Shown: piece by piece, positions 4,475 to 30,199 of the stretch | Layout: the number at the start of each line of letters is the position of its first letter | How positions within the stretch are numbered: the stretch's first letter is position 1 | Assembly: GCA_030765065.1 (NCBI GenBank) | Contig: CM060980.1 | Coordinates: 61,240,364-61,304,363 of the forward strand | DNA length: 64,000 nt | Direction: 5' to 3' | From: Deroplatys truncata | Lineage: Eukaryota > Arthropoda > Insecta > Mantodea > Mantidae | The notes under the pieces: model-generated | The model's input: only the letters and a program-made list of their open reading frames with translations | The model's database searches: none | What the model was told of the DNA's origin: nothing | Program-made: the position numbers and the translations under genes

Positions 4475-6769
4475 TCATATTTTTATAAATATTGCCCCTT
4501 TGTAAATTACTGAATATTTTACTTTCAATGCAGATTATGGTTGGCAAGTTAAGGATGTAATTATAATACTTCTTTCGAAAACTCAATACTGAAATGTTAA
4601 TGGAAAAAAGCATTGAGTCCCTCTGTATATAAGAAAAAGCATTTCAGAAAATACCTTTTCATTTGAGAACATAAAACTCAAAAACCAGGTATGTGCCGGA
4701 TGTCTAGTTGAATCAGATGCTGTTTAAGGACGCAAGGAGATTTTTTTTTAAAAGTCTCAAAAGTGAATAAACTTTTTTATTAAAACATTAATCTTATTTT
4801 TGAGATCTTACCAGGACATACCATGTATATCTCGCTCCTTGTCAGAGTAGTCTGTTAGCCCTCTATTTCTCAAAGAATTTTATATTCCTTGGAGACCATA
4901 ATTAGTACACGAAAGACTACTTTAGACAAGTTATGTAGATCTCACTAAAATGTACAGTTTTAGGAGTTAGCCCTTTTCGAAATATTTGTTGTAACATTTC
5001 TTAAGAAGTCCGGGACAGATATTTTGGCCAAAAATGATAAAATAATTTTATATTTTTACATATTACATGAACCTAAACTTGGAACCAATACACATCCCAT
5101 GACATCATAGTTTTTTCTGTATTCTGGTATTTTTAAAGGTGTATTAACACCTTGAAAGGGTAAGTGAGTAGGCATTTAATGGCAAATATCGAATCTTCTT
5201 TTGCATTTTTCTACAACATGAATTCTCTACGATTTAAGGTGTTCTAAGTGTATCAGAGGTAGTTCAATTTTAACAAAAACTTTTATGCTTCATCTTGAAA
5301 ACTAAATGTACAACTCTGGTTATTTTTACAATGCTATGACTTTGAAGAAAAACAAATTGAATTTTAAAACTTTTATGAAGTTTTATGGAACAATTAATCT
5401 GAAAATAAAGAAAACTTGATAATCTCAATAAGTACAGGAGTTATTTATAAAACTAATAAAAATATATTCTTCCAAACTTAATCAATAAAATTGATTTATT
5501 GCTGTGCTTCAGATGTTATAGCGGATGGAGTATAATGGTATTTTGTTTTTAATTTGTATAAAATATTTATATCTTGAGAAGTAACTATCGTACAAAATTA
5601 AAATTTTACATATGAGTTGCCTTTATGACAGAAAACATGTATACGCATTTTTAACCAAATAACTTCAAAATAACAAAACCTGGTAAATTCAGTCCCAGGG
5701 TTCACATCTGTGAAACTCTGTTTCTCAACATGCATGCAACCCAGCACTTCTAGGCATACATTTACCTCGATTAGCATAAACTGGCTAGAATGATCGCTGT
5801 TTATACGAGGAGTAAATGTTTGTTACTGATAATTGAAAGAAAAGTTCATGTTAGTGTCTACATATCCCATTTTTAACGCTTATTGTATTCACAAAGGCTT
5901 ATGCCATTCGCTGTGTGGTTCTGGAACAAAGTTTAAGCATATCTCTCTATCACGAAGTCAGTTGTGGCGTTGCATGCGTATTGAGGACAGCAGAGCAGTA
6001 GGCAATTCTCTGAAATATATGAGGCGTTTGGGACGTACAGTGAAGACACAGGAAGAACGTTTCATTCCAAATGAGCTTTGTTTTCCTTTGAACGCCAAGT
6101 ATCCAGCTACCCGAGCGTTTCCTGAAACTTTAAATGCGTGTGTGTGCGTGTTTATGCAGAAGTACGTGGAAGGTAAGCACACAATATAGTCGATAAAGGT
6201 GCAGAGAAAGAGGAGGAGGAACGGGATTTGCGGGGAGCAGGGTGGTTTTTATAGCCCCTTCCCTGACTTTATGAGTTACACCGCAACTAGAGACTGTATC
6301 GCGAACTAATATTTCTTCCCGATTTCCTCAATAACTCCCCATCTACTGTCCCGCTATACGCGCTCTCTCTTTCACCCCTTCACGCGGAGAAACGCGGCAC
6401 TAATGTTTCTCTACGCCTCCGGAACAACCCACGTCTCATTTTCTTTAGAATTATATATCTTTCTCCAACCGTTTTTTTTTCAGATGAAAGCTACAGGCGG
6501 TATGTCGATGTTTAATATTGAGTTTCCGTAAAATATTGAATTGCTGAAGCGTTTAGAATGGCATTATTAAATCTTTATTTAATAGCGTCTCGACATCAGG
6601 TCTTACAAACGCGAAGCGCTCAAAACGAGATTTAAGGTATGGTACATATACATGAAGAAGAAATGTATAAGATAAAAGTAATTTAAGAACGTGTTAACTG
6701 GAAGATTTTAATTCATATCATCTGCCCATACAACGGTACATATAATGGTACATATCACGGAGGGGCCCC
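4475..6769. other. no recognised feature before the inverted repeat
   Basis: AT-rich to about 5800, then more mixed and GC-richer from 5950 to 6450. The longest ORF (5833-6189) begins with TTG and resembles nothing I recognise. Just before the junction the sequence reads ACGGTACATATAATGGTACA, a short direct repeat. Confidence 0.45.
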
Positions 6770-6927
6770 AGTAGTAATAGTCCCGGATGAGCCAATTGTT
6801 TTAACGATAATCCTGCCGCTAGGGGCGCTAGTGTCGCTAGTGTCGCTGCGTGCGACGGCGGCGGCGGTAAGTTTGAAAAGCGCCCTGAGCGGTAGGATTA
6901 TCGTTAAATCGGTTGGCTCATCCGGGA
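6770..6927. repeat. left terminal inverted repeat with 147-bp hairpin
   Basis: After the outermost AGTAGTAATAG, two 40-bp arms (6781-6820 and 6888-6927) beginning TCCCGGATGAGCCAA form an imperfect hairpin around a GC-rich loop with TGTCGCTAG repeats and a GGC run. The same hairpin is at the far right end, so each end of the large inverted repeat carries its own smaller one. It may be an independent MITE captured at both ends or a terminal recognition structure. Confidence 0.85.
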
Positions 6928-6929
6928 CG

Positions 6930-9540
6930 AGTTGAAAGAATTGAGGAAGTGACGTGGAGTGTTTTGATTGGTTCGTTAATTTGGGGTGGGAGATGAAGGA
7001 AGGAAGATGGAAGAGTATGGAGTTGGCGTGATGGAGAGGAGTTGGGTGGCGAGGTGTTGTCTGTGCGGAGGTCGGTACTGAAATGGGGGAAAAGATGGGG
7101 AGCGAGGGATAAAAAGTGTAACAGAAAGTGACGTGTGAAGTTGTGATTGGTGGGAATAAGAAGTGATTTTATTGGTGGAAAGGAGCAAATGAGAGTTGTT
7201 GATTGGTAAGAATAAGAGGGATTATGATTGGTGGAAAGAAAAAGGTGTGGGAGTGGGGTATGTTGGAGGTGATGGGAAAGGTGAGTTTTGCTAGCAGCAA
7301 GATTTGCAAAAGCCTGTCTTGAACTGATCAGCAATTTTTGAACGTCGGATGGTAGTTTTCTTGAGTGGATAGAGAGATGGGGGCGATATGAGATGCGGTG
7401 GCGAAAATGGGAACTAGACAAGGTTGTTGAGACAAGAGGTTTAAGGACGAGGAAATTTGGAGGTTAGTGGTGAACACGGCGGTCGCAAGAGGTGGGGGTA
7501 AGGAGACGCAGTGGTGAGAATGGGAACTAAAAGAAGATGGGGGTAGCAAGAGTTTTAGAAGAGTAGATTTTGAGGTTAAAATAGTGGGAACTAAAAATGG
7601 CGGAGGGTCTGCGACAAGGAGATGCGGTGAGAACTAAACAAGATGGCGGTCGCAAGAGGAGGGTAAGGAGATTTGAGGTTACAGTACGAAAACACGAAAG
7701 GATATATTCCTACGCCAAACAGGTCCGAAAAATAATTATGCGTGTGGTACTTACCTGTTACCGGTGTGGATGCGTCACCAAAAGCGCGGCACGCGAGGCG
7801 GAAAAATAAAAGCAAACTGTTTTTGAAAATGCTTAACCAGCTTTAAGATCAACCAACATCACTACGCACTGATATACCTAGGTTTTTAAAGCGGTACAGA
7901 CACCCTTTGCAGAGGCGTAATTTAACTATACCAAAAACCTGGTACTGGACCATCGTGATGGTCGCTAGCGTACGTAGGAGCAGGGTTCTCATAGCCGGTC
8001 GAAAGCGGTCAAAAACGTGTACGACGTAGGTGTTGACAGTAGCTGCTGTCGAGTCAACGGTCGAGGTGTGAATAAACAAGATCTGTTCTCGCCGGCAATT
8101 TGGTTCGGAGATGTGAGCAGCGGCGAGGTGTTGTCTGTGCGGAGGTCGGGACTGAAAGAGGGAAAAGATGGGGAGCGAGGGATAAAAAGTGTAACAGAAA
8201 GTGACGTGTGAAGTTGTGATTGGTGGGAATAAGAAGTGATTTTATTGGTGGAAAGGAGCAAATGAAAGTTGTTGATTGGTAAGAATAAGAGAGGTTATGA
8301 TTGGTGGAAAGAAAAAGGAGTGGGGTATGTTGGAGGTGATGGAAAAGGTAAGTTTTGCTAGCAACAAGATTTGCAAAAGCCTGTCGTGAACTGATCAGCA
8401 ATTTTTTGAACGTTGGATGGTAGTTTTCTTGAGTGGATAGAGAGATGGGGCGATATGAGATGCGGTGGCGAAAATGGGAACTAAACAAGGTGGTTGAGAC
8501 AAGAGGTTTAAGGACGAGGAAATTTGGAGGTTAGTGGTGAACATGGCGGTCGCAAGAGGTGGGGGTAAGGAGACGCGGTGGTGAGAATGGGAACTAAAAG
8601 AAGATGGCGGTAGCAAGAGGTTAGAAGAGTAGATTTTGAGGTTAAAATAGCGGGAACTAAAAATGGCGGAGGGTCTGCGACAAGGAGATGCGGTGAGAAC
8701 TAAACAAGATGGCGGACGCAAGAGGTGGGTAAGGAGATTTGAGGTTACAGTACCAAAACACGAAAGGATATATTCCTACGCCAAGCAGGTCCGAAAAATA
8801 ATTATGCGTGTGTTACTTACCTGTTACCGGTGTGGATGCGTCACCAAAAGCGCGGCACGCGAGACGGAAAAATAAAAGCAAACTGTTTTTGAAAATGCTT
8901 AACCAGCTTTAAGATCAACCAACATCACTACGCACTGATATACCTAGGTTTTTAAAGCGGTACAGACACCCTTTGCAGAGACGTAATTTAACTATACCAA
9001 AAACCTGGTACTGGACCATCGTGATGGTCGCTAGCGTACGTAGGAGCAGGGTTCTCATAGCCGGTCGAAAGCGGTCAAAAACGTGTACGACGTAGGTGTT
9101 GGCAGTAGCTGCTGCCGAGGCAACCGTCGAGGTGCGAATGAACGAGATCTGTTCTTGCAGGCAATCTGGTTGAGAGATGAGAGGCGCGGTGGTAAAAATG
9201 TGAACTAAATAAGATGGCGGAGGCACGAAGTTGAGGTTAAGGAGCGGCGAGGTGTTGACTGTGCGGCGGTTGGGGTCTGAAAGAGGGGGAAAGATGGCGA
9301 ACGAGGGATAAAAAGTATAACAGAAAGTGACGTGTGAAGTTGTCATTGGTGGGAATAAGAAGTGATGTTATTGGTGGAAAGGAACAAATGAAAGTTGCTG
9401 ATTGGCGAGAATAAGAGAGATTATGATTGGTGGAAAGAAAAAAAGGTGTGGGAGTGGGGTATGTTGGAGGTGATGGAAAAGGCAAGTTTTGCTACCAACA
9501 ACATTTGCAAAAGCCTATCCAGAACTCATCAGCAATTTTA
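6930..9540 (-). promoter_or_regulatory. tandem promoter-like modules, left arm
   Basis: This mirrors 21960-24570, and reading outward (minus strand) gives the sense described there. Blocks starting at 7048, 8128 and 9243 repeat with a period of about 1.1 kb; the third is partial. Each holds several ATTGG (CCAAT on minus) boxes, GTGACGT sites and repeated AAGATGGCGG motifs. The first two modules each carry an outward-facing splice donor (near 7750 and 8819). ORFs in this stretch are low-complexity Ser/Thr/Pro/Leu strings that look like by-products of repeats. Confidence 0.5.
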
Positions 9541-9868
9541 AATAACTAGTGTTTCGGGGGTTTTCTCTGGTTGGTAGACGAATGCAAGCTGTTTCTACCA
9601 TACTTATATTATTCGTCTTTTTCCTTTTTTTTTTAAAATGACTAGGTTTTTTTTTTTTTTTTTTTGGGAGTTTTCTGCGGATGGTAAACAAATGCAAGCT
9701 CTTTCTGCTTTTTCATAGGTTTTCCCTGGTTGGTAGGCGTTTTCTGTACTGGTTGACGAAGGCGTTTCTAATTTTGGAGGTTTTCTCAGGTTTTTAGCGG
9801 TTGTCCCTGCCCGGTAGGCAAATGATGAAGTTTTACCTTGTCGGCGCACGGATACTAGGCACGTACTG

Positions 9869-9899
<31 letters not shown>

Positions 9900-10286
9900 G
9901 AGACAGACAGACACACAGACAGGCACACACACACGGACATGTTTCCAAAAATGCTTTTTTTTTTTTGATTCAGGAGGTCTCAAAACGTGTATTTCCGGTG
10001 AAATCTCGGTATCGAATTTTTGGGCGGAATGCAATACTTCCCCTACTTACTATACGTAGTAGAGGAAGTAAAAAAGTATTGAAAAATTTAAGGAAATAAC
10101 AAGCAATACCTCAAAAGTATACTATCTTGTTTTCACGGGTTTTCCAGATCGGTAAGCGTTAGAATACTCTTAGAGCTTTTTTCAGGTTTTTTAGCGGTTG
10201 TCCCTGGCCGGTAGGCAAATGATAAAGTTTTTCTATAACGTCGTCGTTTTGGCTTGTGGCGCACGGATACTAGGCACGTACTCGCG

Positions 10287-10320
<34 letters not shown>
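9541..10320. repeat. microsatellites and degenerate short repeats, left arm
   Basis: Short related blocks built on GTTTTCCCTGGTTGGTAGG and AATGCAAGCT recur several times. Two copies of a CGGATACTAGGCACGTAC block (near 9850 and 10265) each adjoin a CA microsatellite, with a DR1 end fragment between them (about 9935-10075). Poly-T runs near 9650 differ in length from the mirrored arm. Confidence 0.7.
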
Positions 10321-10322
<2 letters not shown>

Positions 10323-13189
10323 TAGTAGCGTATAAAAAAAACTGATGTGTTACACTCACATGACTTTCTCTACTCTTGTACAATCTAATTGGTAGCTTTT
10401 AAGCGATAGTCAAATATTTTAACGCTGGTTGCTATGTGGCGAATTCCATTCTGTTTGCATGTTCAGGACATAAAAAAAATGAATAAACGAATTTGAGAAA
10501 AAGTATAAGTATTGGAAAATTTAAGGAAATAACAAGCAATATCTCGAAAACGGTTCACTCAACAAAAGAAACGTATATGACATAAGTTGTGTATTTTAAC
10601 GCGATCTACATTTTTTGTGTAGTAAAATTTTGTCTATCTCTTATGGTTTACCAGTTATGCAAAAAAGTCGTTCACAATGAAGAATATTTTTGGAGACATT
10701 CCCAGAAAATTCGAGATATACATTTTATTTGACATGACAATATCTTAAACATATGATGTTTTAATCAAAATCGTTAGAGCCGTTTTTGAGAAAATTAAAA
10801 TTTTCGAAAAATGTTCCATGTAAAGGGTAGTCTGGGGTGGGGGGATTTTCTTGAAAACCTTCGTGTCGCATCTCTGGAAGATACTGAACCTAAATACCAA
10901 GTTTGGTGTTTATCCGACTGTTCGTTTTTGAGTTATGCTGTTCACAGACACACAGACACACAGACACACAGACAGACACACACACGGACATGTTTCCAAA
11001 AATGCTTTTTTTTTTGGATTCAGAGATTCTCAAAACATGTATTTCCAGTGAAATCTCGGTAACGAATTTTTGGGTGGAATGCAATACTTCCCCTACTTAC
11101 TATACGTAGTAGAGAAAGTAAAAATGAATAACGCATTTGAGAAAAAGTATAAGTATTGGAAAATTTAAGGAAATAACAAGCAATATCTCGAAAATGGTTC
11201 ACTCAACTAAAAAAAATGTATATGACATAAATTGTGTATTTTAACGCGATCTACATTTTTTGTGTAGTAAAATTTTGGCTATCTCTTATGGTTTACAAGT
11301 TATGCATACTGAACCTAAATACCAAGTTTGGTGTTTATCCGACTGTTCGTTTTTGAGTTATGCTGTTCACAGACACACAGACGCACAGACAGACACACAG
11401 ACACACAGACACACAGACAGACACACACACGGACATGTTTCCAAAAATGCTTTTTTTTTCTGGATTCAGTGATTCTCAAAACATGTATTTCCAGTGAAAT
11501 CTCGGTATCGAATTTTTGGGTGGAATGCAATACTTCCCCTACTTACTATACGTAGTAGAGAAAGTAAAAATGAATAACGCATTTGAGAAAAAGTATAAGT
11601 ATTGGAAAATTTAAAGGAAATAACAAGCAATATCTCGAAAAACGGTTCACTCAACAAAATAAATGTATATGGCATAAGTTGTGTATTTTAACGCGATCTA
11701 CATTTTTTGTGTAGCAAACTTTTGTCTATCTCTTACGGTTTATCAGTTATGAAAAAGTCGTTCACAATGAAGAATTCTTTTGGAGACATTCCCAGAAAAT
11801 TCGAGATATACATTTCATTTCTCTCGACATTATCTTAAATATATGATATTTTCATCAAAATCGTTAGAGCCATTTTTTAATACAAAGAGAACGGGGATTT
11901 CACAAGTGAAACAGTACTGTGATAGCGATACCACTGAAACAAAAAAAAAAAAATCTGATGTGTAACACTCACATGACTTTCTCAACTCTTGTACAAAGTA
12001 TTTTTACAAACGCTTATTCCCCATCTAGTTCATGTTAATCGAGATAAACATTTGCAAAATCTATTTTATTGCTAATTTTCTTGTATAAAAAAAAAATCTG
12101 ATGTGTAACACTCACATGACGTTCTCTACTCTTGTACAAAGTATTTTTACAAACGCTTATGCTCCATCTAGTTCATGTTAATCGAGATAAACATTTGCAA
12201 ACTCTATTTTATTGCTAATTTTCTTGTAGATGTAGGGGAAAATATATTTACAAGGGGAATATAGAAAAACAGTAGCCTTTAAGCACATACATATCTCTTA
12301 ATAGCTGGTTGCTATGTGCAGCACCATTCTTTTTGCCACAGATTAATACTGTTTGCATATCAAAGACAAAAAAAAATGAATAACGAAGTCCCATTTGAGA
12401 AAATAAATATTGGAAAATTAACAAACAATATCTCGAAAACGGTTCACTCAACAACAAAAATGTATATTACATAAGATGTGTATTTTAACGCGATCTACAT
12501 TTTTTGTGTAGTAAAATTTTGTCTATCTCTTACGGTTTTTCAGTTATGAAAAAGACGTTCACAATGAAGAATACTTTTGGAGACATTCCCAGAAAATTCG
12601 AGATATACATTTCATTTCTCACGACATTATCTTAAACATACGATATTTTTCATCAAAATCGTTAGAGCCATTTTTTTTAATACAAAGAGAACGGGATTTC
12701 ACAAGTGAAACAGTACTGTGATAACGATACCAACAAAACTAATTATTATTCACCCACTGAAACACATAAAAAAAATCTGATGTGTAACACTCACATGACT
12801 TTTCTCATCTCTTGTACAAAGTATTTTTACAAACGCTTATTCCCCATCTAGTTTATGTTAATCGAGATAAACATTTGCAAACTCTATTTTATTGCTAATT
12901 TTGTTGTAGATGTAGGGAAAATATATTTACAAGGGCAATATAGAAAAACAGTAGCCTTTAAGCACATACATATCTCTTAATAGCTGGTTGCTATGTGCAG
13001 TACCATTCTTTTTGCCACAGATTAATACTCTTTGCATATCAAAGACAAAAAAAAATGAATAACGAATTCCCATTTGAGAAAATAACTATTGGAAAATTTA
13101 AGTAAATAACAAGCAATATCTCGAAAACGGTTCACTCAACAATAAAGATGTATATGACATAAGTTGTGTATTTTAACGCGATCTACATA
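10321..13189 (+). repeat. cluster of DR1 copies, left arm
   Basis: Several partial and overlapping DR1 copies lie head to tail. The terminal block ending ACTATACGTAGTAGAGAAAG appears near 11100 and 11550 (a further one near 10070). The opening block with ACTCACATGACTTTCTC appears near 11965, 12110 and 12790. The CGCGATCTACATTTTTTGTG core recurs near 10600, 11245, 11690 and 12490. The pattern suggests local tandem duplication of DR1 pieces after insertion. Confidence 0.75.
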
Positions 13190-13648
13190 CTTTCGTACTC
13201 ACCTATAAGATATAGAGGGTAGAGGTCGTACGAACGTAGCACTTTGAGAATTTATATTCAACAGTTGGTGTTACTCCTTAGAAAGGAAGTATCTGCTGAT
13301 TTTTATTTAATTCTTTACATTTTACATAACACGTATGCACTGGCACAACACAAAAGCACTACACACGATACTCAGTTTTAATATTTGCACTAATAACATC
13401 AGGAATAACTGAAGTCTGCAAACAGTCATTTCCCATGTGCAGCCTTACGTACAGAGAACGTGTGTGGCTGATCTATGTGTAAAAAGAGCCTGAGAGCGGA
13501 TGTACGTCAGCGGTAAAATCTTTTAAATGCATTTTTATTGGCGATGGTAGAAATCGTGCAGTGGTGGATCGTGAAAATTCATATAAATGGATGTATCACC
13601 TCATAATTAGCCTCTATATACCAAGAATATTGAGTTTTTAAAAAGTCA
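13190..13648 (-). promoter_or_regulatory. initiator, exon and splice-donor-like segment, left arm
   Basis: Mirror of 17850-18308. On the minus strand it reads TCAGTT (initiator-like), then about 200 bp, then a consensus-like donor ATAG/GTGAGTA whose GT falls at 13201-13202. It sits between the 76-bp satellite and the DR1 cluster. A transcript from it would run outward. No coding sequence is recognised. Confidence 0.35.
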
Positions 13649-15213
13649 GCAACTGTACCTGTGTTTCTATACGTGAACGTCAGATGGCAGCTTCGATACG
13701 TGTCCACGGAGACCTTAGTGCTAGGCAACTGTACCTCTGTTTCTATACGTGAACGGCAGATTGCAGCTTCGATACGTGTCCACGGAGACCTTAGTGCTAG
13801 GCAACTGTACCTCTGTTTCTATACGTGAACGGCAGATTGCAGCTTCGATACGTGTCCACGGAGACCTTAGTGCTAGGCAACTGCACCTCTGTTTCTATAC
13901 GTGAACGGCAGATTGCAGCTTCGATACGTGTCCACGGAGACCTTAGCGCTAGACAACTGCACCTCTGTTTCTATACGTGAACGGCAGATTGCAGCTTCGA
14001 TACGTGTCCACGGAGACCTTAGTGCTAGGCAACTGTACCTCTGTTTCTATACGTGAACGGCAGATTGCAGCTTCGATACGTGTCCACGGAGACCTTAGTG
14101 CTAGGCAACTGTACCTCTGTTTCTATACGTGAACGGCAGATTGCAGCTTCGATACGTGTCCACGGAGACCTTAGTGCTAGGCAACTGCACCTCTGTTTCT
14201 ATACGTGAACGGCAGATTGCAGCTTCGATACGTATCCACGGAGACCTTAGTGCTAGGCAACTGCACCTCTGTTTCTATACGTGAACGGCAGATTGCAGCT
14301 TCAATACGTGTCCACGGAGACCTTAGTGCTAGGCAACTGTACCTCTGTTTCTATACGTGAACGGGAGATTGCAGCTTCGATACGTGTCCACGGAGACCTT
14401 AGTGCTAGGCAACTGCACCTCTGTTTCTATACGTGAACGTCAGATTGCAGCTTCGATACGTGTCCACGGAGACCTTAGTGCTAGGCAACTGCACCTCTGT
14501 TTCTATACGTGAACGGCAGATTGCAGCTTCGATACGTATCCACGGGGACCTTAGTGCTAGGGAACTGCACCTCTGTTTCTATACGTGAACGGCAGATTGC
14601 AGCTTCAATACGTGTCCACGGAGACCTTAGTGCTAGGCAGCTGTACCTCTGTTTCTATACGTGAACGGCAGATTGCAGCTTCGATACGTGTCCACGGAGA
14701 TCTTAGTGCTAGGCAGCTATACCTGTTTCTATACGTCAACGGCAGATTGCAGCTTCGATACGTGTTCACGGAGACCTTAGTGCTAGGCCACTGTACCTGT
14801 GTTTCTATACGTGTCCACGGAGACCTTAGTGCTAGACAACTGTACCTCTGTTTCTATACGTGAACGGCAGATTGCAGCTTCAATACGTGTCCACGGAGAC
14901 CTTAGTGCTAGTGCTAGGCAACTATACCTCTGTTTCTATACGTGAACGGCAGATTGCAGGTTCGATACGTGTCCACGGAGATCTTAGTGCTAGGCAACTA
15001 TACCTGTTTCTATACGTGAACGGCAGATTGCAGCTTCGATACGTGTCCACGGAGACCTTAGTGCTAGGCAACTGTACCTGTGTTTCTATACGTGAACGTC
15101 AGATGCCAGCTTCGATACGTGTCCACGGAGACCTTAGTGTTTGGCAACTGTACCTCTGTTTCTATACGTGAACGGCAGATTGCAGCTTCGATACGTGTCC
15201 ACGGAGACCTTTC
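13649..15213 (+). repeat. 76-bp satellite array, 21 units, left arm
   Basis: Units of 76 bp carry GCAACTGTACCTCTG, TCTATACGTGAACGG and GATACGTGTCCACGG in fixed order. I count 21 starts of the CTRTTTCTATACGTG block, one of them truncated near 14800. Units differ by single bases (GTACC or GCACC, GGCAG or GTCAG), and the divergence is greatest towards the inner end. The ORFs through the array exist only because the unit lacks stops and are not genes. There are no variable spacers, so this is not a CRISPR array. Confidence 0.95.
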
Positions 15214-15530
15214 GCTTCAGGTGACAAAATAACACTAGGCACTTGTGTGCCGTGGTGTAAGCCGCAATCACGGTATTGGTAGCGTGGATCTCCTTGGGGC
15301 TCTCCTCGGAGTTACCTCAACACCACGTACATGACCTGGTTCGTCACGGGTACGCAGGTCTGCACTACCACTTCCTCGGCGTTGAGCAGGCCCAGGAGGC
15401 GATCGTACCGGTACACCAGCTAGCACGTGGACATGTTATCGCGCTGTGGTGTTGCGTGTGCGAGGTATGGAAACTCAAGGACGCAAAACATGCACGACCG
15501 AGGGTTAAAAAGCAGAACAAGTAGTGACGT
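15214..15530. other. GC-rich unique segment, left arm
   Basis: A GC-richer stretch with mirror at 16040-16358. An 82-codon ORF (15276-15524) starts at TTG and has no recognised family, so I do not call it a gene. Its end overlaps sequence resembling the promoter-like modules. Confidence 0.5.
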
Positions 15531-15770
15531 GGAGCGTTGTGATTGGTGTAAATAAGACGATCTCTGATAGGTGGACAAATTGAAATAACGTGATGTGATA
15601 GGCGAAAATAAAATCAAAGGTGATTGGATGAAAAATGACGAGAAGGAATTAGCGGTGAATTTGTGAACTAAGATGGCGAAGATTTTTTTTTTTAAAAAAA
15701 GGATAATATAAGTACGGCAACTGTAACGGTTTACGGCAAACGCGCGCCGCGCAATGCGTCACGCCCGGGC
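15531..15770 (-). promoter_or_regulatory. central module and GC-rich stem, left side
   Basis: On the minus strand this carries ACCAATCACAACG, CTCCACGTCACT and GCCATCTTAG, matching the outer modules (compare 24525-24550). Inward it continues through a poly-T/poly-A run and CGTACTTATATTATCC into a GC-rich stem containing GCGCGCCGCGCAATGCG that pairs with 15801-15840. Confidence 0.55.
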
Positions 15771-15799
15771 AATAAAACAAAAATCATATTGAGCAAGAT
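15771..15799. other. 29-bp loop at the centre of the inverted repeat
   Basis: The only unpaired sequence between the two arms; AT-rich with AATAAAACAAAAATC. The stem next to it has one extra C on the left side (ACGCCCGGGC versus GCCCGGCGT). Confidence 0.9.
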
Positions 15800-16039
15800 G
15801 CCCGGCGTGACGCATTGCGCGGCGCGCGTTTGCCGTAAACCGTTACAGTTGCCGTACTTATATTATCCTTTTTTTAAAAAAAAAAATCTTCGCCATCTTA
15901 GTTCACAAATTCACCGCTAATTCCTTCTCGTCATTTTTCATCCAATCACCTTTGATTTTATTTTCGCCTATCACATCACGTTATTTCAATTTGTCCACCT
16001 ATCAGAGATCGTCTTATTTACACCAATCACAACGCTCCA
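15800..16039 (+). promoter_or_regulatory. central module and GC-rich stem, right side
   Basis: Mirror of 15531-15770. It reads GC-rich stem, TATATTATCC, poly-A, CTTCGCCATCTTAG, then CCAATCACC, CACCAATCACAACG and CACGTCACT. CCAAT plus a CRE-like TGACGT core suggests promoter function, but only by motif resemblance. Confidence 0.5.
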
Positions 16040-16358
16040 CGTCACTACTTGTTCTGCTTTTTAACCCTCGGTCGTGCATGTTTTGCGTCCTTGAGTTTCC
16101 ATACCTCGCACACGCAACACCACAGCGCGATAACATGTCCACGTGCTAGCTGGTGTACCGGTACGATCGCCTCCTGGGCCTGCTCAACGCCGAGGAAGTG
16201 GTAGTGCAGACCTGCGTACCCGTGACGAACCAGGTCATGTACGTGGTGTTGAGGTAACTCCGAGGAGAGCCCCAAGGAGATCCACGCTACCAATACCGTG
16301 ATTGCGGCTTACACCACGGCACACAAGTGCCTAGTGTTATTTTGTCACCTGAAGCGAA
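16040..16358. other. GC-rich unique segment, right arm
   Basis: Reverse complement of 15214-15530 with no differences that I noticed. No recognised gene. Confidence 0.5.
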
Positions 16359-17848
16359 AGGTCTCCGTGGACACGTATCGAAGCTGCAATCTGCCGTTCA
16401 CGTATAGAAACAGAGGTACAGTTGCCTAACACTAAGGTCTCCGTGGACACGTATCGAAGCTGCCATCTGACGTTCACGTGTAGAAACACAGGTACAGTTG
16501 CCTAGCACTAAGGTCTCCGTGGACACGTATCGAAGCTGCAATCTGCCGTTCACGTATAGAAACAGGTATAGTTGCCTAGCACTAAGATCTCCGTGGACAC
16601 GTATCGAACCTGCAATCTGCCGTTCACGTATAGAAACAGAGGTATAGTTGCCTAGCACTAGCACTAAGGTCTCCGTGGACACGTATTGAAGCTGCAATCT
16701 GCCGTTCACGTATAGAAACAGAGGTACAGTTGTCTAGCACTAAGGTCTCCGTGGACACGTATAGAAACACAGGTACAGTTGCCTAGCACTAAGGTCTCCG
16801 TGAACACGTATCGAAGCTGCAATCTGCCGTTGACGTATAGAAACAGGTATAGCTGCCTAGCACTAAGATCTCCGTGGACACGTATCGAAGCTGCAATCTG
16901 CCGTTCACGTATAGAAACAGAGGTACAGCTGCCTAGCACTAAGGTCTCCGTGGACACGTATTGAAGCTGCAATCTGCCGTTCACGTATAGAAACAGAGGT
17001 GCAGTTCCCTAGCACTAAGGTCCCCGTGGATACGTATCGAAGCTGCAATCTGCCGTTCACGTATAGAAACAGAGGTGCAGTTGCCTAGCACTAAGGTCTC
17101 CGTGGACACGTATCGAAGCTGCAATCTGACGTTCACGTATAGAAACAGAGGTGCAGTTGCCTAGCACTAAGGTCTCCGTGGACACGTATCGAAGCTGCAA
17201 TCTCCCGTTCACGTATAGAAACAGAGGTACAGTTGCCTAGCACTAAGGTCTCCGTGGACACGTATTGAAGCTGCAATCTGCCGTTCACGTATAGAAACAG
17301 AGGTGCAGTTGCCTAGCACTAAGGTCTCCGTGGATACGTATCGAAGCTGCAATCTGCCGTTCACGTATAGAAACAGAGGTGCAGTTGCCTAGCACTAAGG
17401 TCTCCGTGGACACGTATCGAAGCTGCAATCTGCCGTTCACGTATAGAAACAGAGGTACAGTTGCCTAGCACTAAGGTCTCCGTGGACACGTATCGAAGCT
17501 GCAATCTGCCGTTCACGTATAGAAACAGAGGTGCAGTTGTCTAGCGCTAAGGTCTCCGTGGACACGTATCGAAGCTGCAATCTGCCGTTCACGTATAGAA
17601 ACAGAGGTGCAGTTGCCTAGCACTAAGGTCTCCGTGGACACGTATCGAAGCTGCAATCTGCCGTTCACGTATAGAAACAGAGGTACAGTTGCCTAGCACT
17701 AAGGTCTCCGTGGACACGTATCGAAGCTGCAATCTGCGGTTCACGTATAGAAACAGAGGTACAGTTGCCTAGCACTAAGGTCTCCGTGGACACGTATCGA
17801 AGCTGCCATCTGACGTTCACGTATAGAAACACAGTTACAGTTGCTGAC
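16359..17848 (-). repeat. 76-bp satellite array, 20 units, right arm
   Basis: This mirrors the left array unit by unit: the same variant units (the CTCCCGTTC variant, the TCTAGCGC variant and the truncated unit) occur in the same order. One of two consecutive GTACC-type units of the left array (near 14037 and 14113) is missing here, giving 20 instead of 21. Several single-base differences from the left copy occur at the inner end, for example CACGTGTAG near 16478. Confidence 0.95.
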
Positions 17849-17849
17849 T

Positions 17850-18308
17850 TTTTAAAAACTCAATATTCTTGGTATATAGAGGCTTATTATGAGGTGATAC
17901 ATCCATTTATATGAATTTTCACGATCCACCACTGCACGATTTCTACCATCGCCAATAAAAATGCATTTAAAAGATTTTACCGCTGACGTACATCCGCTCT
18001 CAGGCTCTTTTTACACATAGATCAGCCACACACGTTCTCTGTACGTAAGGCTGCACATGGGAAATGACTGTTTGCAGACTTCAGTTATTCCTGATGTTAT
18101 TAGTGCAAATATTAAAACTGAGTATCGTGTGTAGTGCTTTTGTGTTGTGCCAGTGCATACGTGTTATGTAAAATGTAAAGAATTAAATAAAAATCAGCAG
18201 ATACTTCCTTTCTAAGGAGTAACACCAACTGTTGAATATAAATTCTCAAAGTGCTACGTTCGTACGACCTCTACCCTCTATATCTTATAGGTGAGTACGA
18301 AAGTATGT
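17850..18308 (+). promoter_or_regulatory. initiator, exon and splice-donor-like segment, right arm
   Basis: Immediately outside the satellite, this segment contains TCAGTT near 18081 as an initiator-like site and a donor-like ATAG/GTGAGTACG with GT at 18291. An AATAAA at 18186 could instead be a poly(A) signal. It is a candidate first exon of an outward non-coding transcript, with no protein recognised. Confidence 0.35.
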
Positions 18309-21169
18309 AGATCGCGTTAAAATACACAACTTATGTCATATACATCTTTATTGTTGAGTGAACCGTTTTCGAGATATTGCTTGTTATTTACTTAAATTTT
18401 CCAATAGTTATTTTCTCAAATGGGAATTCGTTATTCATTTTTTTTTGTCTTTGATATGCAAAGAGTATTAATCTGTGGCAAAAAGAATGGTACTGCACAT
18501 AGCAACCAGCTATTAAGAGATATGTATGTGCTTAAAGGCTACTGTTTTTCTATATTGCCCTTGTAAATATATTTTCCCTACATCTACAACAAAATTAGCA
18601 ATAAAATAGAGTTTGCAAATGTTTATCTCGATTAACATAAACTAGATGGGGAATAAGCGTTTGTAAAAATACTTTGTACAAGAGATGAGAAAAGTCATGT
18701 GAGTGTTACACATCAGATTTTTTTTATGTGTTTCAGTGGGTGAATAATAATTAGTTTTGTTGGTATCGTTATCACAGTACTGTTTCACTTGTGAAATCCC
18801 GTTCTCTTTGTATTAAAAAAATGGCTCTAACGATTTTGATGAAAAATATCGTATGTTTAAGATAATGTCGTGAGAAATGAAATGTATATCTCGAATTTTC
18901 TGGGAATGTCTCCAAAAGTATTCTTCATTGTGAACGTCTTTTTCATAACTGAAAAACCGTAAGAGATAGACAAAATTTTACTACACAAAAAATGTAGATC
19001 GCGTTAAAATACACATCTTATGTAATATACATTTTTGTTGTTGAGTGAACCGTTTTCGAGATATTGTTTGTTAATTTTCCAATATTTATTTTCTCAAATG
19101 GGACTTCGTTATTCATTTTTTTTTGTCTTTGATATGCAAACAGTATTAATCTGTGGCAAAAAGAATGGTGCTGCACATAGCAACCAGCTATTAAGAGATA
19201 TGTATGTGCTTAAAGGCTACTGTTTTTCTATATTCCCCTTGTAAATATATTTTCCCCTACATCTACAAGAAAATTAGCAATAAAATAGAGTTTGCAAATG
19301 TTTATCTCGATTAACATGAACTAGATGGAGCATAAGCGTTTGTAAAAATACTTTGTACAAGAGTAGAGAACGTCATGTGAGTGTTACACATCAGATTTTT
19401 TTTTTATACAAGAAAATTAGCAATAAAATAGATTTTGCAAATGTTTATCTCGATTAACATGAACTAGATGGGGAATAAGCGTTTGTAAAAATACTTTGTA
19501 CAAGAGTTGAGAAAGTCATGTGAGTGTTACACATCAGATTTTTTTTTTTGTTTCAGTGGTATCGTTATCACAGTACTGTTTCACTTGTGAAATCCCCGTT
19601 CTCTTTGTATTAAAAAATGGCTCTAACGATTTTGATGAAAATATCATATATTTAAGATAATGTCGAGAGAAATGAAATGTATATCTCGAATTTTCTGGGA
19701 ATGTCTCCAAAAGAATTCTTCATTGTGAACGACTTTTTCATAACTGATAAACCGTAAGAGATAGACAAAAGTTTGCTACACAAAAAATGTAGATCGCGTT
19801 AAAATACACAACTTATGCCATATACATTTATTTTGTTGAGTGAACCGTTTTTCGAGATATTGCTTGTTATTTCCTTTAAATTTTCCAATACTTATACTTT
19901 TTCTCAAATGCGTTATTCATTTTTACTTTCTCTACTACGTATAGTAAGTAGGGGAAGTATTGCATTCCACCCAAAAATTCGATACCGAGATTTCACTGGA
20001 AATACATGTTTTGAGAATCACTGAATCCAGAAAAAAAAAAGCATTTTTGGAAATATGTCCGTGTGTGTGTCTGTCTGTGTGTCTGTGTGTCTGTGTGTCT
20101 GTCTGTGCGTCTGTGTGTCTGTGAACAGCATAACTCAAAAACGAACAGTCGGATAAACACCAAACTTGGTATTTAGGTTCAGTATGCATAACTTGTAAAC
20201 CATAAGAGATAGCCAAAATTTTACTACACAAAAAATGTAGATCGCGTTAAAATACACAATTTATGTCATATACATTTTTTTTAGTTGAGTGAACCATTTT
20301 CGAGATATTGCTTGTTATTTCCTTAAATTTTCCAATACTTATACTTTTTCTCAAATGCGTTATTCATTTTTACTTTCTCTACTACGTATAGTAAGTAGGG
20401 GAAGTATTGCATTCCACCCAAAAATTCGTTACCGAGATTTCACTGGAAATACATGTTTTGAGAATCTCTGAATCCAAAAAAAAAAGCATTTTTGGAAACA
20501 TGTCCGTGTGTGTGTCTGTCTGTGTGTCTGTGTGTCTGTGTGTCTGTGAACAGCATAACTCAAAAACGAACAGTCGGATAAACACCAAACTTGGTATTTA
20601 GGTTCAGTATCTTCCAGAGATGCGACACGAAGGTTTTCAAGAAAATCCCCCCACCCCAGACTACCCTTTACATGGAACATTTTTCGAAAATTTTAATTTT
20701 CTCAAAAACGGCTCTAACGATTTTGATTAAAACATCATATGTTTAAGATATTGTCATGTCAAATAAAATGTATATCTCGAATTTTCTGGGAATGTCTCCA
20801 AAAATATTCTTCATTGTGAACGACTTTTTTGCATAACTGGTAAACCATAAGAGATAGACAAAATTTTACTACACAAAAAATGTAGATCGCGTTAAAATAC
20901 ACAACTTATGTCATATACGTTTCTTTTGTTGAGTGAACCGTTTTCGAGATATTGCTTGTTATTTCCTTAAATTTTCCAATACTTATACTTTTTCTCAAAT
21001 TCGTTTATTCATTTTTTTTATGTCCTGAACATGCAAACAGAATGGAATTCGCCACATAGCAACCAGCGTTAAAATATTTGACTATCGCTTAAAAGCTACC
21101 AATTAGATTGTACAAGAGTAGAGAAAGTCATGTGAGTGTAACACATCAGTTTTTTTTATACGCTACTAT
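18309..21169 (-). repeat. cluster of DR1 copies, right arm
   Basis: Mirror of 10321-13189 with the same breakpoints between partial DR1 copies. The arms differ by single bases, such as GGAAATATGTCC here (20047) against GGACATGTTTCC on the left, and by poly-A length. Confidence 0.75.
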
Positions 21170-21959
21170 TTTAGTGTGTGTGTGTGTGTGTGTGCGCGCG
21201 CGCGCGAGTACGTGCCTAGTATCCGTGCGCCACAAGCCAAAACGACGACGTTATAGAAAAACTTTATCATTTGCCTACCGGCCAGGGACAACCGCTAAAA
21301 AACCTGAAAAAAGCTCTAAGAGTATTCTAACGCTTACCGATCTGGAAAACCCGTGAAAACAAGATAGTATACTTTTGAGGTATTGCTTGTTATTTCCTTA
21401 AATTTTTCAATACTTTTTTACTTCCTCTACTACGTATAGTAAGTAGGGGAAGTATTGCATTCCGCCCAAAAATTCGATACCGAGATTTCACCGGAAATAC
21501 ACGTTTTGAGACCTCCTGAATCAAAAAAAAAAAAAAAAGCATTTTTGGAAACATGTCCGTGTGTGTGTGCCTGTCTGTGTGTCTGTCTGTCTCTCTGTGT
21601 GTGTGTGTGTGTGTGTGTGCGCGCCAGTACGTGCCTAGTATCCGTGCGCCGACAAGGTAAAACTTCATCATTTGCCTACCGGGCAGGGACAACCGCTAAA
21701 AACCTGAGAAAACCTCCAAAATTAGAAACGCCTTCGTCAACCAGTACAGAAAACGCCTACCAACCAGGGAAAACCTATGAAAAAGCAGAAAGAGCTTGCA
21801 TTTGTTTACCATCCGCAGAAAACTCCCAAAAAAAAAAAAAAAAAAAAAACCTAGTCATTTTAAAAAAAAAAAAGGAAAAAGACGAATAATATAAGTATGG
21901 TAGAAACAGCTTGCATTCGTCTACCAACCAGAGAAAACCCCCGAAACACTAGTTATTTA
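21170..21959. repeat. microsatellites and degenerate short repeats, right arm
   Basis: Mirror of 9541-10320, with TG microsatellites near 21175 and 21597, CCAACCAGGGAAAACC-type short repeats and a poly-A tract near 21830. Confidence 0.7.
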
Positions 21960-24570
21960 AAATTGCTGATGAGTTCTGGATAGGCTTTTGCAAATGTTGT
22001 TGGTAGCAAAACTTGCCTTTTCCATCACCTCCAACATACCCCACTCCCACACCTTTTTTTCTTTCCACCAATCATAATCTCTCTTATTCTCGCCAATCAG
22101 CAACTTTCATTTGTTCCTTTCCACCAATAACATCACTTCTTATTCCCACCAATGACAACTTCACACGTCACTTTCTGTTATACTTTTTATCCCTCGTTCG
22201 CCATCTTTCCCCCTCTTTCAGACCCCAACCGCCGCACAGTCAACACCTCGCCGCTCCTTAACCTCAACTTCGTGCCTCCGCCATCTTATTTAGTTCACAT
22301 TTTTACCACCGCGCCTCTCATCTCTCAACCAGATTGCCTGCAAGAACAGATCTCGTTCATTCGCACCTCGACGGTTGCCTCGGCAGCAGCTACTGCCAAC
22401 ACCTACGTCGTACACGTTTTTGACCGCTTTCGACCGGCTATGAGAACCCTGCTCCTACGTACGCTAGCGACCATCACGATGGTCCAGTACCAGGTTTTTG
22501 GTATAGTTAAATTACGCCTCTGCAAAGGGTGTCTGTACCGCTTTAAAAACCTAGGTATATCAGTGCGTAGTGATGTTGGTTGATCTTAAAGCTGGTTAAG
22601 CATTTTCAAAAACAGTTTGCTTTTATTTTTCCGTCTCGCGTGCCGCGCTTTTGGTGACGCATCCACACCGGTAACAGGTAAGTAACACACGCATAATTAT
22701 TTTTCGGACCTGCTTGGCGTAGGAATATATCCTTTCGTGTTTTGGTACTGTAACCTCAAACCTCCTTACCCACCTCTTGCGTCCGCCATCTTGTTTAGTT
22801 CTCACCGCATCTCCTTGTCGCAGACCCTCCGCCATTTTTAGTTCCCGCTATTTTAACCTCAAAATCTACTCTTCTAACCTCTTGCTACCGCCATCTTCTT
22901 TTAGTTCCCATTCTCACCACCGCGTCTCCTTACCCCCACCTCTTGCGACCGCCATGTTCACCACTAACCTCCAAATTTCCTCGTCCTTAAACCTCTTGTC
23001 TCAACCACCTTGTTTAGTTCCCATTTTCGCCACCGCATCTCATATCGCCCCATCTCTCTATCCACTCAAGAAAACTACCATCCAACGTTCAAAAAATTGC
23101 TGATCAGTTCACGACAGGCTTTTGCAAATCTTGTTGCTAGCAAAACTTACCTTTTCCATCACCTCCAACATACCCCACTCCTTTTTCTTTCCACCAATCA
23201 TAACCTCTCTTATTCTTACCAATCAACAACTTTCATTTGCTCCTTTCCACCAATAAAATCACTTCTTATTCCCACCAATCACAACTTCACACGTCACTTT
23301 CTGTTACACTTTTTATCCCTCGCTCCCCATCTTTTCCCTCTTTCAGTCCCGACCTCCGCACAGACAACACCTCGCCGCTGCTCACATCTCCGAACCAAAT
23401 TGCCGGCGAGAACAGATCTTGTTTATTCACACCTCGACCGTTGACTCGACAGCAGCTACTGTCAACACCTACGTCGTACACGTTTTTGACCGCTTTCGAC
23501 CGGCTATGAGAACCCTGCTCCTACGTACGCTAGCGACCATCACGATGGTCCAGTACCAGGTTTTTGGTATAGTTAAATTACGCCTCTGCAAAGGGTGTCT
23601 GTACCGCTTTAAAAACCTAGGTATATCAGTGCGTAGTGATGTTGGTTGATCTTAAAGCTGGTTAAGCATTTTCAAAAACAGTTTGCTTTTATTTTTCCGC
23701 CTCGCGTGCCGCGCTTTTGGTGACGCATCCACACCGGTAACAGGTAAGTACCACACGCATAATTATTTTTCGGACCTGCTTGGCGTAGGAATATATCCTT
23801 TCGTGTTTTCGTACTGTAACCTCAAATCTCCTTACCCTCCTCTTGCGACCGCCATCTTGTTTAGTTCTCACCGCATCTCCTTGTCGCAGACCCTCCGCCA
23901 TTTTTAGTTCCCACTATTTTAACCTCAAAATCTACTCTTCTAAAACTCTTGCTACCCCCATCTTCTTTTAGTTCCCATTCTCACCACTGCGTCTCCTTAC
24001 CCCCACCTCTTGCGACCGCCGTGTTCACCACTAACCTCCAAATTTCCTCGTCCTTAAACCTCTTGTCTCAACAACCTTGTCTAGTTCCCATTTTCGCCAC
24101 CGCATCTCATATCGCCCCCATCTCTCTATCCACTCAAGAAAACTACCATCCGACGTTCAAAAATTGCTGATCAGTTCAAGACAGGCTTTTGCAAATCTTG
24201 CTGCTAGCAAAACTCACCTTTCCCATCACCTCCAACATACCCCACTCCCACACCTTTTTCTTTCCACCAATCATAATCCCTCTTATTCTTACCAATCAAC
24301 AACTCTCATTTGCTCCTTTCCACCAATAAAATCACTTCTTATTCCCACCAATCACAACTTCACACGTCACTTTCTGTTACACTTTTTATCCCTCGCTCCC
24401 CATCTTTTCCCCCATTTCAGTACCGACCTCCGCACAGACAACACCTCGCCACCCAACTCCTCTCCATCACGCCAACTCCATACTCTTCCATCTTCCTTCC
24501 TTCATCTCCCACCCCAAATTAACGAACCAATCAAAACACTCCACGTCACTTCCTCAATTCTTTCAACTCG
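21960..24570 (+). promoter_or_regulatory. tandem promoter-like modules, right arm
   Basis: Each module has clustered CCAAT boxes (for example 22068-22155 and 23191-23283), CACGTCACT, and TTTTATCCCTCG. Initiator-like TCAGAC, TCAGTC or TCAGTA follows at 22218, 23343 and 24417, then a shared 200-bp block ending in a perfect CAG/GTAAGT donor (GT at 22678 and 23744; the last module is truncated before it). Between modules lie short repeats built on GACCGCCATCTTGTTTAGTT. The GCCATCTT core matches the YY1/Pho-type site AAGATGGC. Function is inferred from motif clustering only. Confidence 0.5.
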
Positions 24571-24728
24571 TCCCGGATGAGCCAACCGATTTAACGATAA
24601 TCCTACCGCTCAGGGCGCTTTTCAAACTTACCGCCGCCGCCGTCGCACGCAGCGACACTAGCGACACTAGCGCCCCTAGCGGCAGGATTATCGTTAAAAC
24701 AATTGGCTCATCCGGGACTATTACTACT
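24571..24728. repeat. right terminal inverted repeat with 147-bp hairpin
   Basis: Mirror of 6770-6927. The hairpin arms are at 24571-24610 and 24678-24717, followed by the terminal CTATTACTACT and then the possible target duplication GGCCCC. Confidence 0.85.
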
Positions 24729-24734
24729 GGCCCC

Positions 24735-26803: not shown

Positions 26804-27724
26804 TGAGGGAGTGTTTTTAACACTTAAATTATTTCAGTCAAATTATATAATATATAAATTCAATAACAGCCCGCCTTGAAGCAATATGTGTATGTAATAA
26901 TTTGTAAAATGTATATAACACTCATTGCATATGCTTATATTATTTTACACATGTTCAATAATGTTATATGAATGTATTACGTAATTTAATAATGTAGCAG
27001 CTGTGAGAAATAGATCAAAAGTTGTTAACAATAAGGTAACAATGAGGTAACCTTGAGGCAATAATGAATTAGAAAGTTTAAATGTTACTTGTGATTCTTG
27101 GAAGCAATAGTGTAATTTTAGTGACAGTTTATAAAAATAGCCAATCAACAACCAGAAAAAGCTTTAGTTAAATAGGTATTCTATTGGATTAGGAATAACC
27201 AATCAGAGACTTGAAATACAGAAATTTACAAGTTTAGGCGGTTGAAATCAATTCAGTTGCCTGCAAACAGTGTTCCTAACCGGACGCGAGACACATCCTC
27301 GAGAGATTTAATACGTATTTGTGTGAGACGAAAAAATAGTTAACGTGTTAAAAAGTGCAAGTAATTCATAAAAGAATCTCACAGCTCTCTATCAGTGTGT
27401 TATTTAAATCGTGTCAAGCATTTATAAAAGGAGTGACGTAAAATTATAATCTGCGTAAGCCTACATTCTTCAGTCGCACCACAACTCTGCAAAGAGAAAC
27501 ACATCTCTAACAATAATACTGACGCAGCCGAGGCAAACATAAATATATAATATTTAAAGAAACAGTAAAAATACATTTGGGGCGAAGGCTACCGGAAACT
27601 TTTTACTATACGTGCGGTTGCTACTGCTTCCAGTTCGGTTCCCCAACATAAGAACTACAATACAGCTTACTTCAAATTGACGCTCAAAGCGTGATGCAAA
27701 TAACGTAACAAACCACCTACTTCA
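26804..27724 (+). mobile_element. solo LTR inserted in the pseudogene
   Basis: A 921-bp sequence starting TGAGGGAGTG and ending CTACTTCA is flanked by AGCA on both sides (26800-26803 and 27725-27728). Removing it and one AGCA restores the coding join ATGAAGCAATTTG of the pseudogene. Inside are CCAAT boxes at 27141 and 27199 and TATAAAAG at 27423, so the LTR reads on the plus strand. TG...CA ends with a 4-bp duplication suit a Gypsy-type LTR retrotransposon; no internal region remains. A second copy is at 41077-42046 in the opposite orientation. Confidence 0.85.
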
Positions 27725-28774: not shown

Positions 28775-29752
28775 TTAAAAATCTTATGTGTTACATTTAC
28801 ATGACTCTCTGCTCTTGTAAAAATATTTTACAAACTCTTATGCTCCATCTATTTCATATTAATCGAGATAAACATTTGCAGAAACGTTCTTTTGACATAC
28901 AAAGAGAATTACATTTTACACATAGCGACCAGTTCTAAAAATATTTGACTATCGCTTAAGCCGTATTAAGTTCCCCTTGTTTTGTATTTGCAAGGGTAAT
29001 ATAGAAATACAGTAGCCTTTAAATATAGACATATCTCTTAATGGCTGGTTGCTAGGTGCAGCACATTCTCTTTGCCACAGATTAATACTCTTTGCATATC
29101 CAAGACAAAAAAATGAATAACGCATTCCCATTTGAGAAAATAAGTATTGCAAAATTTAAGGCAATAACAAGCAATATCTCGAAAATGATTCACTCAACAA
29201 CAAAAATGTATATGACATAAATTGTGTATTTTAAGGCGATCTACATTTTTTGTGTAGTAAACTTTTGTCTATTTCTTATGGTTCACCAGTTATGCAAAAG
29301 TTGTTCACAATGAAGAATACTTTTGGAGACATTCCCAGAAAATTCGAGATATAGATCTCATTTGTCATGAAAATATCTTAAACATATGATATTTTAACCA
29401 AAATCGTTAAAGTCATTTTCGAGAAAATTAAAATTTTCGAAAAATGTTCGATATAAAGGGTAATCTGGGGTGGGGGGATTTTCTTGAAAACCTTCGTGTC
29501 GCATCTCTGGAAGATACTGAACCGAAATACTAAGTTTGGTGTTTATCCGACTGTTTGTTTCTGAGTTATTCTGTTCACAGACACACACATAGACACACAC
29601 ACAGACACACACGGACATGTTTCCAAAAATGCTTTTTTTTTTTTGGTTTCAGAGGGTCTCAAATCATATATTTCCCGTGAAATATCGGTATCGAATTTTT
29701 GTGTGGAATACAATACTTCCCCTACTTACTATTCGTAGTAGAGAAAGTAAAA
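28775..29752 (+). repeat. DR1 interspersed repeat, complete copy
   Basis: The best stand-alone copy. It opens with ATCTTATGTGTTACATTTAC and GACTCTCTGCTCTTGTA, passes through ATCGAGATAAACATTTGC, TAATGGCTGGTTGCTA, GCGATCTACATTTTTTGTG, AAATCGTTAAAGTCATTTTC, GGGGTGGGGGGATTTTCTTG, a CA/GACA microsatellite and GGACATGTTTCC, and closes with ACTATTCGTAGTAGAGAAAG. The two ends share an inverted ACTTTCTCTACT-like core. About 980 bp, non-coding. Confidence 0.8.
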
Positions 29753-30199
29753 ATGGAACGATAGATGTGTGTGTATTTGCCGCACACAATCTCACTGTTT
29801 TCAAGAAGTTGCTTAACGATTACCATCAATAGAAAAAGAATTTTAAGGAACTTATAAATATCTCATCTCTGCATTTGTACTTATAGACTGCAGCAATTCA
29901 CACTATTTTTCATTGCTTCAGCATAAAAACAAGGAAAACCGTAAGAAACTGTATTATTAAACTTACAATAATTGCAATATTGATATTAGAACGATGAAAA
30001 TGTATATCAGACTTTTTTTACTTTAAGATATATCATCGTATTCGTGCAAACCAAATCAACAGGAAATAAAAGGACATTGTTACAGATAGTTTTAGAAAAT
30101 TGTTCACGTTAACAGGAAATTCAATACGAAAGATACAACTACACTCGCTTGAATGGATTTATTAGTCACTAGCAGAACCAGCAGGACTGCACGCATCTC
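29753..30199. other. no recognised feature
   Basis: AT-rich sequence with no ORF or repeat I can name. Confidence 0.45.

Follow-up and report, generated by a model that had tools for sequence, protein, structure and literature searches.

The replication of Polintons, or Mavericks, by protein priming, perhaps as virions, has been inferred from sequence. In other systems, palindromic defective adenovirus genomes, including Ad12 SYREC, consist of two copies of one terminus joined head-to-head, and the palindromes of sex chromosomes undergo arm-to-arm gene conversion. Vertebrate Mavericks, in the sections of the survey drawn on here, most commonly end in the motif 5'-(AGT)2//(ACT)2-3' and have 6-bp target-site duplications, average 16,862 +/- 1,678 bp in size, bear terminal repeats of 46–1,447 bp (mean 402) and number a median of eight per genome, and a role in jumping-back is ascribed to their repeated end motif (PMC8097293). 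Among foldback transposons, the description of Tetris, to the extent used here, gives 8–10-bp duplications, arms of up to 1.7 kb and an assignment to Mutator (PMC4079207). The present study examined a stretch of 64,000 nucleotides from the mantis Deroplatys truncata, hereafter the window (contig CM060980.1, C6:61240364-61304363 of the 4.29-Gb genome), in which positions 6770–24728 are occupied by an 18-kb palindrome. We consider it probable that this palindrome is a non-autonomous ("satellite") Polinton/Maverick derivative, having both descended from Mavericks and been moved by them. As a palindromic foldback form of Maverick, it would be a new type within the known Maverick kind; no palindromic Maverick was found in the open-access literature searched by titles and abstract openings, subscription journals being largely outside that scope.

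Geometry, ends and copies of the palindrome

The original prediction of a near-perfect 18-kb palindrome with a 29-bp loop agreed to the base with self-comparison and alignment. The palindrome starts with AGTAGTAATAG at 6770 and finishes with the complement of AGTAGTAATAG at 24728, and BLASTN of the window against itself returned an inverted match between 6768–15135 and 24730–16358 together with a central one at 13725–17844. The left arm (6770–15769, plus strand; 9,000 bp), whose 5' end reads AGTAGTAATAGTCCC, and its mirror image, the right arm (15799–24728, minus strand; 8,930 bp), were delimited by self-match and alignment; they enclose the loop (15770–15798), CAATAAAACAAAAATCATATTGAGCAAGA, which has a GC-rich stem at both sides. 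Each arm contains a 76-bp minisatellite found by repeat analysis, of 20.55 units in the left arm (13650–15211, plus strand) and 19.55 units in the right (16358–17844, minus strand). The scattered substitutions and small indels that had been noticed between the arms amounted to 24 substitutions and nine indels in a MAFFT arm-versus-arm alignment whose stretches were taken about 10 bp into the flanks. Five of these substitutions fell in the 6500–7000 bin, which includes flank, and among the indels one lay at the flank edge and another was a whole minisatellite unit. With the minisatellite excluded, nine mismatches between the arms were counted over 7,433 aligned sites (0.12%), and there were eight gap events.

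The ends carry the Polinton/Maverick motif 5'-(AGT)2 ... (ACT)2-3', to which (AG)3 is the recognised alternative, and reading of the flanks placed GGCCCC on both sides (6764–6769 and 24729–24734), a target-site duplication of 6 bp, likewise as in Polintons/Mavericks. Genome-wide, a loop 44-mer was found at 514 places exactly and at 692 with at most three mismatches, while the reversed control pattern gave 0; at about 18 kb each, 692 copies would come to an estimated 12 Mb or so, full length being assumed. First-look candidates numbered 2,399 for the arm end, 1,005 for the centre and 1,520 for the inner part, and 40 candidates were scored in each of these searches, so that the places found are lower bounds. 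The palindrome's 29-base terminus occurs 2,056 times, four for each exact loop, and many of these termini are paired without an exact loop. A search for further same-ended copies had been suggested along with the view that the palindrome is a transposable element, and both suggestions were borne out, the latter by the target-site duplications and the hundreds of copies sharing these ends.

Ten extra copies (E1–E10), chosen among the 40 matches that scored best against the central 451 bp, were read beside the window copy (W). Their end positions gave lengths from 15,974 bp (E3) to 19,782 bp (E7; n = 11, W included), and the loop was identical in all 11. Perfect 6-bp duplications surrounded nine of the 11 copies at first reading; that of E10 became perfect once both termini were shortened by one AGT (three bases), and that of E2 matched at five of six positions. 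AGTAGT stood at 21 of the 22 ends, with E2 running on as ATTAG where the others have AATAG. E10 is short of one AGT at its right end and, to judge from its duplication, at its left end too; termini of this kind are what jumping-back during protein priming would be expected to leave when it slips.

Assembly or library artefacts, in which one long read or haplotype is folded back, also typically take the shape of a very long, near-perfect palindrome. Such a source is very unlikely here because substitutions and indels set the arms apart, the flanks are unlike each other yet hold a common, perfect 6-bp duplication, and the genome contains 514 exact loops. Assembly fold-back is countered as well by the duplications around all 11 copies (one with a mismatch) and by the spread of hundreds of copies with one loop over many contigs, their lengths and minisatellites varying, sometimes between arms, as in E8 and E10, whose arms are visibly unequal.

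The palindrome could alternatively be a classical foldback transposon (FB/Mutator-type) with unusually long arms and no Maverick kinship. It resembles FB, Galileo and Tetris in being non-autonomous and in being made up mostly of very long inverted repeats that have tandem repeats inside them, and it is like Tetris in lacking recognised coding capacity, as far as the parts of that description used here extend (PMC4079207). However, its duplication is 6 bp and not the 8–10 bp for which Tetris served as yardstick, its arms reach about 9 kb, its ends are (AGT)2, its terminus is common to polymerase-bearing elements, and a polymerase fragment lies in both arms. A classical, Mutator-type reading of the comparison with foldback elements first drawn was accordingly set aside in favour of a Polinton/Maverick derivation, and we regard a classical foldback origin as highly improbable.

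Coding Mavericks and the doubled left region

Set against the median of eight Mavericks in vertebrate genomes, the load of protein-primed polymerases in this genome is seemingly extraordinary, with several families holding long open frames: for PF03175, 76 of 11,882 first-look candidates were scored, with 152 matches counted, and many frames among the candidates scored were open over about 1,260–1,315 aa. The element at C1:263198192-263217948 (19.76 kb) has the palindrome's own terminus, and its first 3 kb are 95.6–97.9% identical to the outer arm. Its left region is without a stretch of about 390 bp and without one of the two ~1.07-kb direct repeats that the self-match revealed in the outer left arm (7048–9189, plus strand; arm 279–1354 and 1353–2420, 95.5% alike). 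Midway, an open polymerase frame was seen over 573 aa (PF03175, E 1.6e-22), followed by an open reading frame (ORF) with a Walker-A-like GPSRCGKST motif and a sub-threshold Pfam match to AAA_14; this order is the same as the polymerase–ATPase order of the first vertebrate Maverick module in the sections consulted (PMC8097293). A 40-mer marker from the polymerase was present at 893 places genome-wide with at most two mismatches. A coding Maverick of a different family, C3:71460895-71478142 (pieces L041 and L042; 17.2-kb span), was rejected as a direct parent, as it belongs to the (AGT)2 end class but has another terminal repeat of about 150 bp.

On C1, exact matches of the terminus, loop, polymerase and arm markers were surveyed up to 262.1 Mb. 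Among 37 exact terminal pairs, 14 enclosed the loop, 10 the polymerase marker and 13 neither. The marker at arm position 189 stood at both ends in 12 of the 14 loop elements and at one end in the other two, and the marker at arm position 2421 stood at both ends in 13. In the polymerase elements, arm-189 was at the polymerase-upstream end in all 10 and arm-2421 in nine (the exact match being absent at 87.7 Mb), and the other end had neither marker in any of them. Arm markers are thus one-ended in coding elements and two-ended in palindromes, from which it follows that the palindrome holds the left region of a Maverick twice; by the same markers, both of its ends come from one helper end, as in palindromic defective genomes of protein-primed viruses. 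That coding relatives themselves have 9-kb inverted repeats finds no support, since their arm markers occur at a single end. Judged from markers at its other end, a coding element would consist of a short exact terminal repeat plus a long left region. In 9 of the 14 loop elements the loop deviated from the exact centre by no more than 26 bp, despite lengths of 16.4–18.6 kb.

Two sets of C1 and C2 elements stood apart. Five of the 13 C1 pairs that enclosed neither an exact loop nor an exact polymerase marker (starts 8175017, 136049225, 169287437, 180964237 and 233586282) also had no arm-189 marker at either end, and are possibly right-end palindromes or another subfamily. At C2:56118709-56129779, the coding-Maverick left junction occurs on either side of a polymerase marker (56121775), 11 kb apart; this is possibly a left-left element still with its polymerase, an intermediate form, or else two neighbouring elements. 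The junction that marks the ~390-bp loss was found at 97 exact places genome-wide, including facing pairs such as C11:115928764/115941215, C14:174099986/174112402 and C16:207170150/207183322, which may be palindromes that arose from that helper end or were renewed by it.

The arms also preserve a decayed protein-primed DNA polymerase gene fragment. It lies on the loop side of the minisatellite at 15212–15446 (minus strand), where 44 aa match at 61% and a further 24 aa at 67%; its mirror copy is at 16123–16357 (plus strand), and it is present with a common stop in all 22 arms; over the shorter segment protein identity ranged from 62.5 to 67%, and the relic is broken by the stop and a change of frame. 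This relic in each arm links the palindrome to Mavericks through descent, and since each arm has just a broken polymerase stretch of about 78 residues, the palindrome is filed as a non-autonomous derivative and not as an autonomous Maverick. Pfam returned nothing above cut-off, and so no retroviral-like integrase, capsid or protease, in the nine left-arm ORFs of at least 110 aa (which have nine mirrors in the right arm) and one ORF just outside. The best match, DUF4183 (E 0.022), was below cut-off and inside minisatellite sequence, and was rejected as coding content of the arm.

The palindrome thus has the (AGT)2//(ACT)2 ends, 6-bp duplication and total size (16–20 kb) of Polintons/Mavericks, as well as the 29-base terminus found here on polymerase-bearing elements, with one of which, partly read, it also has the outer arm in common. 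It differs from them in having no recognised intact gene in the ORFs scanned, in presenting one Maverick end at both of its ends, and in inverted repeats of about 9 kb, compared with 46–1,447 bp in the vertebrate elements as given in the sections used (PMC8097293).

Likeness of the arms and its possible upkeep

With the minisatellite left out, arm divergence was 0.0005–0.0025 within copies and 0.0034–0.0152 between copies, and each of the 22 arms was nearest to its own partner. Variable sites were counted in gap-free alignment columns only (n = 208). Symmetric sites made up 146 of these, 100 being private to one copy and 46 common to several copies, in both arms in either case; the remainder comprised 54 single-arm sites, five that were shared but asymmetric (two of them, next to the loop, being fixed mismatches), and three with multiple states. 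All five indel events longer than 50 bp outside the minisatellite were mirrored in both arms, namely losses of 1,129 bp in E3, 250 bp in E1 and 456 bp in E9, and gains of about 875 bp in E7 and of 58 bp common to E1 and E3; the E3 and E1 losses fall in the direct-repeat region. That arms are closer within than between copies, together with the mirrored large indels, indicates that one arm has been copied from the other. Single-arm changes occurred at 0.31–0.59 per kb per arm in each 1.5-kb bin, and symmetric variants numbered 52 in the first 738 gap-free columns of the outer arm and one in the 556 columns beside the loop. In our reading, exchange with related ends renewed the outer arms, which were afterwards copied onto the other arm.

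We lean towards the view that this copying takes place at replication and not later. Coding Mavericks would provide polymerase and integrase in trans, protein-primed replication would begin at the (AGT)2 ends, and in certain rounds a strand that was displaced or left unfinished would fold at the loop and copy its own arm, placing a variant of one arm in both; the helper integrase would then insert the product by a 6-bp staggered cut. The 11 palindromes read measure 16.0–19.8 kb compared with 18.4–19.8 kb in the 10 polymerase-bearing C1 elements, and given this helper-like size the palindrome may, speculatively, also be packaged in helper particles. A tentative extension, which we think somewhat unlikely, is that of a self-renewing satellite in which fold-back at the loop purges one-armed damage in each cycle and which spreads in helper particles, the latter being suggested by the keeping of helper length along with a doubled left end.

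A rival to the copying step alone is a Maverick-derived palindrome whose arms are kept alike by intrachromosomal gene conversion after insertion, as in the palindromes of sex chromosomes, transposition itself involving no special step. Inverted repeats that lie close together are well known to undergo gene conversion, which would account for the 100 symmetric sites private to a single copy. Nevertheless, one-arm changes persist at the rates given above, so erasure would not be quick, and the concentration of symmetric variants in the outer arm (52 of 146, compared with one beside the loop) fits renewal from helper ends better than it does uniform conversion. Neither point is decisive, and conversion after insertion is an appreciable possibility that we nonetheless rate as less than probable.

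The symmetry might instead be under selection in a host-domesticated hairpin, a source of small interfering or Piwi-interacting RNA (siRNA/piRNA) whose double-stranded RNA acts against Mavericks. A transcript would fold along 9 kb, and the outer arm's 95.6–97.9% identity to the helper end would suit such a role, but the palindrome exists as hundreds of copies of a mobile family rather than as one locus, and we think domestication very improbable.

Several observations weigh against the derivation from Mavericks, or against copying at replication, as set out here. The ten extra copies are a non-random sample, and the helper element is known from two 3-kb pieces, with its far end and its integrase and capsid genes outside them. 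On C1 up to 262.1 Mb, exact terminal pairs failed to take in 13 of the 27 exact loops and one of the 11 polymerase markers, and exact markers left 13 of the 37 pairs plus 15 unpaired termini unclassified. The loop was 72–421 bp off centre in 5 of the 14 loop elements, and 5 of 10 coding elements had the ~390-bp-loss junction at their upstream end (never at the other end), compared with 0 of 14 loop elements. Within the family, several gaps of 15–28 bp are confined to a single arm or unequal in the two, and minisatellite length is equal between arms in 8 of 11 copies, being unequal in W, E8 and E10. The arm copying could equally be the work of chromosomal gene conversion. Finally, the polymerase relic is 77% identical to helper DNA over 214 bp and has the opposite sense to the helper gene relative to the arm, and among Maverick pieces L029–L044 only L044 gave a lengthy match to it; a one-step mirror origin from the present-day helper is therefore not supported, and the palindrome's centre would seem to be either older than the outer arms or of another lineage. 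The original prediction had offered recent origin or gene conversion as the cause of the near identity: homogenisation of the arms stands, and recent origin is too simple in view of a relic at 77% beside outer arms at 95.6–97.9%.

Remaining features and significance

Near its left end the palindrome has an imperfect hairpin of about 150 bp (6780–6928, plus strand), detected as a self-match of positions 11–159 and by single-strand DNA folding, in which the 201-base left end folded at -61.8 kcal/mol (z -13.6; 0 of 200 shuffles as stable); the position of its mirror copy (24570–24718, minus strand) was deduced from the mirror. The loop opens with CAATAAAA, where just one strand has an AATAAA resembling a polyadenylation signal. 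Outside the palindrome, window positions 29130–29755 are a 90.6% copy of arm region 10491–11126, and related repeats also flank the Maverick in L042; given these related repeats outside it, the mid-arm contains or seeded a dispersed repeat. A further repeat of about 0.8 kb forms an inverted pair at 26804–27574 and 41268–42046 (85%).

The left-end palindromes of adenovirus and SYREC would be the nearest analogues; the search of open-access literature by titles and abstract openings found no paper on adenovirus palindromes. Both systems appear to double a terminus that holds the replication origin and to involve a protein-primed relative, whereas the mantis palindromes are high-copy, integrated in chromosomes and furnished with their own loop and target-site duplications. 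Like the palindromes of sex chromosomes, they have arms whose likeness within a palindrome exceeds expectation; they differ from these in being a mobile, dispersed family.

These results serve as a warning that near-perfect 18-kb palindromes in assemblies can be real. In a mirror-symmetric, high-copy family, each copy of which carries variants of its own, replication intermediates may have left a natural record, through which the fold-back or snap-back step becomes testable from genome sequence, and the family suggests that Mavericks are able to carry large satellites.
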